Shown here piece by piece: positions 1,811-21,563 of a stretch of DNA of 64,000 bases (its first letter is position 1; every line of letters starts with the position of its first letter). A program made the translations under genes and the position numbers. The notes under the pieces were generated by a model. It ran no database searches. It was not told where the DNA came from and was given only the letters and a program-made list of their open reading frames with translations. Origin of the DNA: Gemmatimonadaceae bacterium (GTDB taxonomy: Bacteria > Gemmatimonadota > Gemmatimonadetes > Gemmatimonadales > Gemmatimonadaceae). The stretch covers positions 1 through 64,000 of the forward strand of contig JAIBBJ010000064.1 in assembly GCA_019694735.1 (NCBI GenBank), read 5' to 3'.

Positions 1811-2464
1811 ATGACGAAGACCGGAGATGCCGCGCGTCCGACGCCGGCGATCGAGCCCGAGAGCCTGACCGAGACCTGGATCCTCTACAAGAAGCCCATC
1901 CTCATCGGTGTCATCGCGCTCGCGGTGGTCGGGGGCGGGGTCTGGATGTGGCGCAGCACGTCGGCCAAGAAGGAACTGCGGGCCGATCAGGCCTACACGG
2001 CCGCCGAGGCGTCCTACATGGCCGGGAACAAGGCGCTCGCGGTACCCGAGCTCGAGAAGGTCGCCACCCGGTATCAGGGCACCACGGCGGGTACCCAGGC
2101 GGCGATGCTGATCGCCGAGTCGCAGATGGAACAGGGCAAGAACACGGAGGCCGTGGCCCAGCTTGAGGGGGTCCTGTCGTCCGCGCCCGGTCCGATGAAG
2201 TCCGGCCTCTACGCCTTGCTCGGGGCCGCGTACGAAGGGTCCGGCAAGCCCAAGGAGGCGGCGGACGCGTTCGGCCGCGCCGCGGCGGCCGCGGCCTTCC
2301 AGGCCGACAAGGACATGCAGCTGATCGAGCAGGCCCGGAACCTGGTCGCCGCCGGCGACAAGCCGGCCGGCGAGAAGATCCTGCGTGAGATCGCCGGCCG
2401 GGAGGACTCGCCCTACGCCGGTGAGGCTCGCGTCCGGCTCGGCGAGGTGACGGCCAAGCAGTGA
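1811..2464 (+). CDS. Membrane-anchored tetratricopeptide-repeat protein (YfgM/Tol-Pal-like)
   Basis: A 217-residue protein with a 30-residue cytoplasmic N-terminus, one transmembrane helix (PILIGVIALAVVGGGVWMW, about 32-50) and a helical periplasmic region (60-215). The repeats have TPR character (A..Y..AEASYMAGNKALAVPELEKV, then ALLGAAYEGSGKPKEAADAF). Size and layout match the TPR_21/YfgM-type proteins, which assist periplasmic chaperones and envelope assembly; that role is inferred. No Shine-Dalgarno is visible before ATG 1811. It is a single-gene unit closed by two hairpins, and is convergent with dapF. Confidence 0.8.
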   Translation: MTKTGDAARPTPAIEPESLTETWILYKKPILIGVIALAVVGGGVWMWRSTSAKKELRADQAYTAAEASYMAGNKALAVPELEKVATRYQGTTAGTQAAMLIAESQMEQGKNTEAVAQLEGVLSSAPGPMKSGLYALLGAAYEGSGKPKEAADAFGRAAAAAAFQADKDMQLIEQARNLVAAGDKPAGEKILREIAGREDSPYAGEARVRLGEVTAKQ

Positions 2465-2591: not shown

Positions 2592-2619
2592 TACCCGTAT
2601 AATATGTATTATGTAAAGT
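2592..2619. other. Candidate chromosomal dif site (XerC/XerD recombination site)
   Basis: A 28-bp AT-rich island in very GC-rich DNA with dif architecture: an 11-bp left arm TACCCGTATAA (2592-2602), a 6-bp centre TATGTA (2603-2608) and an 11-bp right arm TTATGTAAAGT (2609-2619). The right arm differs at one position from the XerD arm I recall for the Bacillus subtilis dif (TTATGTAAACT), and closely resembles that of E. coli (TTATGTTAAAT). As expected the left (XerC) arm is less conserved but keeps the inner ATAA. It sits between convergent genes, exactly where gene polarity switches, and a Xer recombinase is encoded at 20640-21563. It would resolve chromosome dimers at the terminus. The alternative is a promoter, since TATAAT occurs at 2598-2603, but no gene follows in a suitable position. 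Confidence 0.75.
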
Positions 2620-2703
2620 AGCGAAGTGGAACGGGTGTGGGAAACCGTTAGTCCTCGATTGAATCTACGCCTTCCCGACTCGAGCCGCTTCGCCGCCACA
2701 GCG

Positions 2704-3513
2704 TCACAGCTCCCGCAGCACACCCTCGAACACGATGCGTCCCTCGCCCGCCAAGGACGGCGTGGTGCCGTCCGGCCCAGGTCTGAGGGTCACGGTCAGC
2801 GTCCGGCCGGATCGGGTGCGGAGTTTGGTGACGCCGCCGGCCTCGCCCCAGGCCCCCAGCACGAAGGCGCACGCCACTGCCCCGGTGCCGCACGCCAGCG
2901 TCTCGGCCTCCACGCCGCGTTCGTAGGTCCGGATCCGCCAGCCACCGTCGTCGTCCGGGGACACCCAGTTCACGTTCGCGCCCGCCTGAAGGCTCGAGTG
3001 GTACCGCAGTTCCGGCCCACGGGTCGCGACCTCCGCCAGTTCCGCGTCGGCGGCCCGGACCACGAGGTGCGGGACCCCCACGGTCACGAAGCCCATCCGC
3101 TGTTCGCCGTGCAGGCGGCTGATCCCGGCGTCGGGCCGGAGCCCCTGGGGCGGCTGGAGATCCACCTCCGGCCGTCCCTCCCGGATGCGGCCGCGGACGC
3201 TGCCGGCATCGGTCGCGAACATCAGTCCTGCCGGGTCGGCGATCGCCAGTTCGACCGCGAGTCGGGTCGCGCAGAGGCTCGCATTCCCGCACAGTTCGCC
3301 GAAGCTCCCGTCCCGGTTGAGGTACGTGAGCCTAAAGTCATGCGCATGAGCCGTTTGGATGATGGCAACTCCATCGGCACCTACGCCCGTGTGCGGGGCG
3401 CAGACCGTCCGCACGAACTCCGCGTCGGAGGCCCGCTTGGCGAGCAGGTCGTCGCCCCGGGCGTCGACGAACACGAAGTCGTTGCCCGAGCCGGACATCT
3501 TCCAGAACTTCAT
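2704..3513 (-). CDS. dapF: Diaminopimelate epimerase
   Basis: Converts LL-diaminopimelate to the meso form for lysine and peptidoglycan synthesis, in the cytoplasm. It has 269 residues, normal for the family. The start MKFWKMSGSGNDF carries the family N-terminal signature. The two catalytic cysteines of the two-lobed fold are visible in GELCGNASLC (about residue 75) and ETLACGTGAVACAF (about 215). ATG at 3513 overlaps the stop of the upstream glycosyltransferase by an ATGA junction; starts further upstream would run far into that gene. It is the last gene of the 15-gene envelope run. No clear terminator was seen after it. Confidence 0.95.
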   Translation of the reverse strand: MKFWKMSGSGNDFVFVDARGDDLLAKRASDAEFVRTVCAPHTGVGADGVAIIQTAHAHDFRLTYLNRDGSFGELCGNASLCATRLAVELAIADPAGLMFATDAGSVRGRIREGRPEVDLQPPQGLRPDAGISRLHGEQRMGFVTVGVPHLVVRAADAELAEVATRGPELRYHSSLQAGANVNWVSPDDDGGWRIRTYERGVEAETLACGTGAVACAFVLGAWGEAGGVTKLRTRSGRTLTVTLRPGPDGTTPSLAGEGRIVFEGVLREL

Positions 3514-4232
3514 AGGCGCCCGGTCAGCGCCCACCACCGAAGCCGCCAGACCATCAGGATGGCCTCGCGGACGATGTGGCCGCTCATCTTGGACTCCCCT
3601 TCCGTCCGGTCGGCGAAGACGATCGGGATCTCCACGGGGGTGAACCCCTTCTTCATCGCCCGGAACGACATCTCGATCTGGAAGGCGTAGCCGTTCGACC
3701 GCACGTCATCCAGGTCGATCGCGGCCAGCACGCGCCGGTGGAAGCACTTGAAGCCCCCCGTCGCATCCCATAGCTGCATCCCCGTCACCCAGCGGGCGTA
3801 GATGTTGGCCCCGTAGCTCAGCATGAGCCGGCTGATAGGCCAGTTCACGACCGTGACCTTTCCGTTGAGGTACCTCGAGCCGAGCACGAAGTCGGCCGAC
3901 TCGGCCGCCTTCAGGAACTGCGGGAGGTGGCTCGGGTCATGGCTGAAGTCCGCGTCCATCTCGAAGATCAGCTCGTAGTCCCGCTGGAGGGCCCACCGGA
4001 ATCCGTCCCGGTACGCCGTGCCGAGTCCCAGCTTCCCCGGCCGCCGGAGCAGATGGATCCGGGTGTTGGTGGAGGCGAGGTCCGCGATCAGGTCACCGGT
4101 CCCGTCCGGGGAGTTGTCGTCCACGAACAGGATCTCGATCCGCGGGTCCTGGGCGAGCACCCGCTCAACGAGGGTCGGGACGTTCGCCTTCTCGTTGTAC
4201 GTCGGGGTGATGACGAGGGCCCGCTCAGCCAT
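3510..4232 (-). CDS. Polyprenol-phosphate mannosyltransferase-like GT2 (DPM synthase type)
   Basis: A 240-residue family-2 glycosyltransferase. It opens with ALVITPTYNEKANV, then has the nucleotide-sugar binding FVDDNSPDGTGD, the metal-binding DADFSHDP (about residue 92) and GSRYLNG. This is the layout of single-domain dolichol/polyprenol-phosphate mannose synthases, which load a sugar from a nucleotide donor onto a lipid phosphate at the cytoplasmic face. No transmembrane helix follows the catalytic domain, as in soluble DPM1. Its product could serve the neighbouring YfhO-type membrane protein as lipid-linked donor (inference). Start and stop overlap both neighbours. Confidence 0.88.
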   Translation of the reverse strand: MAERALVITPTYNEKANVPTLVERVLAQDPRIEILFVDDNSPDGTGDLIADLASTNTRIHLLRRPGKLGLGTAYRDGFRWALQRDYELIFEMDADFSHDPSHLPQFLKAAESADFVLGSRYLNGKVTVVNWPISRLMLSYGANIYARWVTGMQLWDATGGFKCFHRRVLAAIDLDDVRSNGYAFQIEMSFRAMKKGFTPVEIPIVFADRTEGESKMSGHIVREAILMVWRLRWWALTGRL

Positions 4233-20639: not shown

Positions 20640-21563
20640 TCACCCCCGCGGATGGAACTGCTTGTGGACCTGCCGCAGGTGCTCGCGGTCCACGTGCGTG
20701 TAGATCTGCGTCGTCGAGATGTCCGCGTGCCCCAGCATCTCCTGCACCGCCCGCAGGTCCGCCCCGCCCTCCAGCAGGTGCGTCGCGAACGAGTGCCGCA
20801 GCGTGTGCGGCGTCACCGGCTTCTCGATCCCCGCCTGCGTCACGTACTTCCGCAGGATCGTCCACGCCCCCATCCGGCTCAGCGGGCCTCCGCGCGCGTT
20901 CAGGAAGAGCTTCCCCTTGCCCTTCCCCTGCTCGAGCCGCGGCCGCAGCTCGCGGAGGTACATCGCCAGCGCCCCCGCCGCCTGCCGGCCGATCGGCACC
21001 AGCCGCTCCTTCCCGCCCTTGCCGAACACCCGCACCACGAGTTCCTCGAACAGCACGTCCTTCACCTCGATCCCGATCCACTCGCTCACGCGCAGCCCGG
21101 CGCCGTAGGCCAGCTCGAGCATCGCGCGATCGCGGAACGCCATGGGCTCGTCGAGCGACACCGCCCCGATCAGCCGGTCCACCTCGGTCGCGGTGAGCAC
21201 TTCCGGCAGCACGCGCCACTTCCGCGGTGTCTCGATCCGCTCGCTCGGGTCCTTCTCCACCACCCCTTCGGCGAGCAGGAACCGGTACCAGGTCCGCACC
21301 GCCGAAAGGCCGCGCCGGATGCTGCTCGGCGCGAGCCCGAGGTCCTTCAGGTGATAGACGAACTCGCGCAGGTGCGCCGGCGTCAGGCCGCCCGGCTCGC
21401 GCACCCCCTTGGTCACCGCCCACGCCGCGAGCCGCGCCAGGTCGCGCCCGTACGCCTCGTTGGTCCGCGCGCTGCTCCCCTGCTCCAGCGAGAGGAACTC
21501 GTCGAAGCGTTCGAGCAGGAAGGCGCGCCCGAGGTCCACCGGCGAGGTCAGGGGCGAGGTCAC
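20640..21563 (-). CDS. xerD: Tyrosine recombinase XerD/XerC
   Basis: A 307-residue site-specific recombinase, standard for chromosomal Xer proteins. An N-terminal SAM-like core-binding domain (about 15-105) is followed by the catalytic domain. Catalytic residues are visible as Arg in AGLRVSEW, Lys in GKGGKERLVP, His-x-x-Arg in HTLRHSFATHL, His in MLGHADISTT and the Tyr nucleophile in TQIYTHVDREHL. It should act at dif to resolve chromosome dimers; a candidate dif lies 18 kb to the left. Whether it is XerC or XerD is uncertain, and the partner is not in the window. The GTG start is leaderless-looking. Confidence 0.92.
   Translation of the reverse strand: MTSPLTSPVDLGRAFLLERFDEFLSLEQGSSARTNEAYGRDLARLAAWAVTKGVREPGGLTPAHLREFVYHLKDLGLAPSSIRRGLSAVRTWYRFLLAEGVVEKDPSERIETPRKWRVLPEVLTATEVDRLIGAVSLDEPMAFRDRAMLELAYGAGLRVSEWIGIEVKDVLFEELVVRVFGKGGKERLVPIGRQAAGALAMYLRELRPRLEQGKGKGKLFLNARGGPLSRMGAWTILRKYVTQAGIEKPVTPHTLRHSFATHLLEGGADLRAVQEMLGHADISTTQIYTHVDREHLRQVHKQFHPRG

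Follow-up and report, generated by a model that had tools for sequence, protein, structure and literature searches.

The AT-rich 28-mer at positions 2592–2619 of the stretch examined here (the window, comprising the first 64 kb of a contig of 104,892 bases) is almost certainly the chromosomal dif site of this soil bacterium of the Gemmatimonadaceae, and in most Gemmatimonadota a conserved and apparently undescribed element stands beside dif. In XerCD/dif systems, FtsK acting on KOPS motifs joins two dif copies and activates XerD, and chromosome dimers are thereby resolved. The site reads TACCCGTATAA-TATGTA-TTATGTAAAGT on the plus strand, its 11-6-11 register being taken from alignment with relatives and with the E. 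coli dif located in MG1655. The XerC arm TACCCGTATAA occupies 2592..2602, the central region TATGTA, whose 6 bp separate the presumed points of cleavage, 2603..2608, and the XerD arm TTATGTAAAGT 2609..2619. When 28 dif sites are aligned, TTATGT in the XerD arm is invariant (28/28), and the XerC arm keeps its inner CNNATAA, with C5 and A8–A11 invariant, while its outer part varies; the 28-bp form is found together with a conserved inner palindrome. The same 28-bp 11-6-11 form and a near-identical XerD arm are common to the dif sites of E. coli and Bacillus subtilis (XerCD and RipX-CodV, respectively), as are a single copy at the terminus, converging KOPS and an FtsK-gamma domain.

The initial annotation had read the 28-mer as a probable dif of 11-6-11 architecture and had named three observations that would speak against it, namely many copies in the genome, no change of skew at the site and the disappearance of the arms from close relatives; all three were looked for, none was found, and the reading is borne out. 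As to copy number, the 28-mer is the sole match at up to three mismatches in the window, where shuffled sequence gives an expectation of 0.00 and where the XerD arm is unique even when one mismatch is allowed, and it is found once, again at up to three mismatches, in the whole 3,523,100-base draft assembly (reversed-pattern control, 0). That an AT-rich palindrome should have arisen here in GC-rich DNA by chance alone is practically inconceivable in the face of this shuffle expectation and of the conservation of the site throughout the phylum. A 26-base degenerate dif pattern occurs once each in 35 of 61 relatives, with no match for its reversed control, and a sequence-only model of dif, built from 28 of the relatives' sites, matches 148 of 200 phylum genomes, nearly always once each, the few double matches including copies at contig ends. 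One dif per chromosome is therefore what is seen here and in nearly all other matching genomes; the 52 of 200 genomes without a match to the model may have gaps in the draft or sites that have diverged. Across the phylum, conservation covers the inner arms and most of the XerD arm. Some genomes of the same genus (G002 and G011, G005) vary in the outer XerD arm (TTATGTATTGT, TTATGTATAAT), and in those with a variant outer arm the flank likewise differs, being partly inverted (GGGGATAACC..GGATTTCCAC). Assembly breaks lie within about 130 bp of dif in several genomes (G015:C5:129, G023:C123:22, G038:C70/C171, G187:C63:8/C119:90 and G192), and some draft assemblies carry dif at two contig ends, which could stem from insertions at dif that differ between strains or from the assembly process.

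The expectation that a dif site read from this lineage would be the first of its kind was too strong: dif was predicted in 2011 by Kono et al. for the one Gemmatimonadetes genome included (1/1), with agreement between the Proteobacteria and Chlorobi profiles, as given in the accessible part of that paper (PMC3025954). The site is of the same kind and from the same phylum, and the 2011 prediction concerns one genome only; the accessible part of the paper makes no mention of a flanking element, of KOPS or of gene linkage. dif itself is known for the phylum through that one earlier prediction and is otherwise ordinary.

Within the window, dif lies between two convergent genes, as the initial annotation had stated: a TPR/BamD-like ORF on the XerC side (1811..2464, plus strand) and dapF (2704..3537, minus strand; TIGR00652 above cut-off). 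A tRNA-Arg (CCT) gene is found at 1641–1715, 0.9 kb left of dif. According to tblastn at the dif loci, dapF is found on the XerD side of dif at nearly all loci of family f1 and at most loci of families f2 and f3, and this linkage across three families is an unusually old one; the usual position of dif 3' of dapF in Gemmatimonadota differs from that of the E. coli and B. subtilis sites. The possibility that the 28-mer is an attachment site of a mobile element (an IMEX att site or pdif module) and not the dif of the chromosome itself gains something from the breaks near dif in the assemblies listed above and from 15 viral contigs of IMG/VR that contain a dif-like 23-mer as an exact match and are candidates for elements that integrate at dif. 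It is nevertheless very improbable, as the site is single in the assembly and is flanked by core genes (dapF, in three families) instead of mobile-element cargo, and as both skew and KOPS polarity switch at it.

This switch was followed in relatives, because the contig starts 2.6 kb left of dif and leaves the left replichore out of view. To the right of dif, the 104-kb contig holds 66 kb of minus-strand against 24 kb of plus-strand coding sequence, and GC skew is negative across most of the window. The relatives used were G011 and G005, represented by near-whole-chromosome contigs, and G032, with a 5.3-Mb contig; skew was computed on 20-kb samples together with contiguous local stretches. On the single 3,257,781-bp contig of G011, which starts at dnaA, dif lies at 49.3% of the length, and the local cumulative GC-skew maximum falls at +46 bp from dif in G011 and at -26 bp in G005. 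Change-point analysis of the polarity of the E. coli-type KOPS GGGNAGGG gave intervals that contain dif in all three relatives: 1,602,437–1,608,159 in G011 (dif at 1,606,130), 1,477,019–1,490,233 in G005 (dif at 1,479,036) and 3,763,911–3,768,669 in G032 (dif at 3,765,241). In four genomes taken together, 221 KOPS point toward dif and 40 away from it, which makes KOPS the most polar among 42 arrangements of the same letters; the contig studied here contributes 22 toward and 4 away. A de novo search for polar k-mers returned simple words that mostly mirror GC skew and codons, among which GGGCAGGG, itself a KOPS, stood out at 121:16. The word GGGCGGGG, close to this KOPS, is likewise strongly polar toward dif (211:38 in G011, G005, G032 and the present contig), and FtsK-gamma may here recognize a broader word than its E. 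coli counterpart does. Thus, the skew maximum within 50 bp of dif and the flip of KOPS polarity place dif at the terminus in G011 and G005, with the polar motifs converging on it, while the present genome displays its right replichore.

The proteins expected to act on such a site are also encoded. The Xer recombinase gene that the initial annotation had located 18 kb from the site is present at 20640..21563 on the minus strand and is xerD, the presumed recombinase for the XerD arm (TIGR02225, 355.3 bits against a cut-off of 329.6). Its XerC-like partner is encoded on another contig of this genome (G000:C191:7717-8616); TIGR02224 is its best family, with a score of 325.9 that lies just under the equivalog cut-off of 335.15. 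FtsK with a gamma domain was found in 19 of 21 genomes, the source genome among them.

Beyond the XerD arm, on the plus strand and outside the span covered by the initial annotation, lies the dif-adjacent element (2625..2644), which is DnaA-box-like and reads outward from dif. In the window it consists of a degenerate unit 1, AGTGGAACG, at 2625-2633 and of unit 2, TGTGGGAAA, at 2636-2644; TGTGGRNAA words number only 15 in the whole 3.52-Mb genome, and unit 2 is among them. This copy, with a spacing of 11 bp, is degenerate, which explains why a strict tandem pattern finds no match in the genome. Alignment of dif flanks revealed conservation on the XerD side only. Of the 82 genomes belonging to families f1, f2, f3, f4 and f6 (counted from 113 dif loci), 81 have an outward-reading TGTGGRNAA with at most one mismatch no more than 40 bp from the XerD arm, the match being exact in 48 of the 82; shuffles of the same 40-mers gave a mean of 2.8 and a maximum of 9 of 82, and other windows in the flanks gave about 1%. 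The element comprises one to three units with a 10-bp period and spans 5–26 bp beyond the XerD arm, its units starting at +5/6, +15/16 and sometimes +25/26, that is, one helical turn apart. An upstream mirror of the element is absent in families f1–f4 and f6. Family f5 shows no unit on the XerD side (0/21) and an exact unit on the XerC side, also outward-reading, in 6 of 22, and families f7 and f10 have no outward unit on either side. If the element has moved to the XerC side in other lineages of the phylum, it may be closeness to dif that is under selection.

The specificity of the composite rests on a species scan and on comparison with the E. coli dif, whose 45-bp flanks contain no TGTGGRNAA unit. 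The scan covered 84,980 species, with one genome each, for a general XerD arm followed by two units, and returned 66 stretches, all labelled Gemmatimonadota (one of them Longimicrobium) except for three from Lachnospiraceae, one from a 'Kuenenia' MAG and two unclassified. The Lachnospiraceae matches have no XerC arm resembling that of dif; those from Kuenenia and from the unclassified records belong to the Gemmatimonas type. CALQGY020000030.1, labelled Candidatus Kuenenia, carries such a Gemmatimonas-type dif with its flank and is probably a mis-binned contig. The idea that the element is a by-product of the dapF 3' end was rejected, since its distance to dif is fixed (+5/+15) while the gap between dif and the ORF on the dapF side varies, and since f4/f6 genomes possess the element without a dapF match at their loci (three genomes checked, two of them with only about 300 bp of flank). 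A search of the openly available literature by title, abstract and partial text yielded no report of DnaA boxes or of a conserved element beside a chromosomal dif.

What binds the element is suggested by where else its word occurs. TGTGGANAA is the reverse complement of TTNTCCACA, and 12 of 15 genomes have TTNTCCACA in or beside their dnaA promoter, commonly in the form TTGACTTGTCCACA; the box-binding signature GGRDHSTV of DnaA domain IV is kept in 15 of 15. The recurrence of the unit word at dnaA promoters and the retention of this signature make DnaA the leading candidate, with the scales between it and another protein reading the same word standing roughly level; taken by itself, binding of DnaA beside dif is about an even bet on these sequence comparisons. 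Compared with the DnaA boxes (TTATCCACA) of oriC, datA and DARS, the units correspond to TTNTCCACA on the reverse strand, as in these dnaA promoters. Unlike those boxes, the candidate units stand at the terminus, at a distance of 5–26 bp from the XerD arm, arranged in tandem every 10 bp and frequently degenerate. The element matches the lineage's DnaA box but allows a G at the sixth base, unlike strict boxes, from which most dif-adjacent units deviate; this mismatch, the degenerate 11-bp-spaced copy in the window and the element-free families f7 and f10 count against DnaA at dif. In the genome studied here, TGTGGRNAA occurs twice beside dnaA and three times in a cluster at a contig end, and it is also found at dif, downstream of parB and upstream of both recA and rplM; the remaining sites lie elsewhere, partly inside genes. 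The contig-end cluster (G000:C215:13346-13982) holds three DnaA-box-like words in less than 640 bp with no convincing ORFs, and is possibly an oriC- or datA-like cluster. DnaA-box-like units also lie about 190–300 bp upstream of recA at G005:C1:1143891-1143909, G011:C1:1950989-1951006 and G000:C21:4867-4875, in tandem in two of these.

A different protein might bind the element, for instance an unknown terminus or SOS-type regulator of 10-bp-spaced GTGGA repeats, in which case the 28-mer would still be dif. This proposal, which we hold to be somewhat the less probable while giving it considerable weight, fits the close 10-bp tandems of the unit upstream of recA (G005, G011) and near parB (G032), the straying of the units from strict DnaA boxes and the alignment of as many as three units along the same face of the helix, which would suit an oligomeric protein; it accounts less readily for the occurrence of the unit word at most of the dnaA promoters examined, which DnaA autoregulation would predict. 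MraZ is a known binder of 10-bp-spaced TGGGN repeats, and an MraZ operator was attractive for the 10-bp GTGGA repeats; it was rejected, since PF02381 had no match in any of 15 genomes while 7 of 14 controls were positive, and this absence also weighs against another binder. A further proposal, that the element is the site of a terminator protein, a Ter-like fork barrier pinning fork fusion to dif, would agree with its position at dif, its polarity and its conserved distance, and with the GC-skew peaks of two genomes, which lie only tens of bases away from dif. It is unlikely, given that a single polar site on one side cannot make a two-sided trap and that the unit word is also found at recA, parB and dnaA.

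With DnaA retained as the leading candidate, the working of the composite site can be proposed from its sequence. XerC would bind the left arm of the 28-mer and XerD the right one, and FtsK, loaded at the septum, would be guided by the KOPS (GGGNAGGG) that point inward on each replichore, pair two dif copies and activate XerD, whereby chromosome dimers would be resolved at the terminus. In most Gemmatimonadota the site is a composite of dif and one to three DnaA-box-like units beyond the XerD arm, most probably occupied, beside XerD, by DnaA and less probably by another regulator recognizing the same word. In such an arrangement, DnaA binding might affect XerD activation or fork fusion. More tentatively, and with a probability that we regard as rather low, DnaA beside XerD at dif might form one complex of the origin initiator and the terminus, coupling dimer resolution or fork fusion to the state of DnaA, or serving as a timer in which replication of dif bears on re-initiation. 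The plasmid Xer sites cer and psi, with PepA and ArgR, offer an analogy, in that protein-binding DNA stands beside a Xer core, the binding being predicted in the present case. In cer and psi the accessory sequences have a larger extent and stand on the XerC side; unlike theirs, the present core is a chromosomal dif, with 6 bp at its centre.

The identification of dif fixes the terminus for a large and mostly uncultured phylum, and guidance by E. coli-type KOPS extends to the Gemmatimonadota. Within the literature searched, the element would be the first conserved accessory sequence reported beside a chromosomal dif. The idea of DnaA at dif can be tested with purified proteins and with cultured Gemmatimonas species, and, if it is true that DnaA binds the element, the control of initiation and that of termination would meet at one locus.
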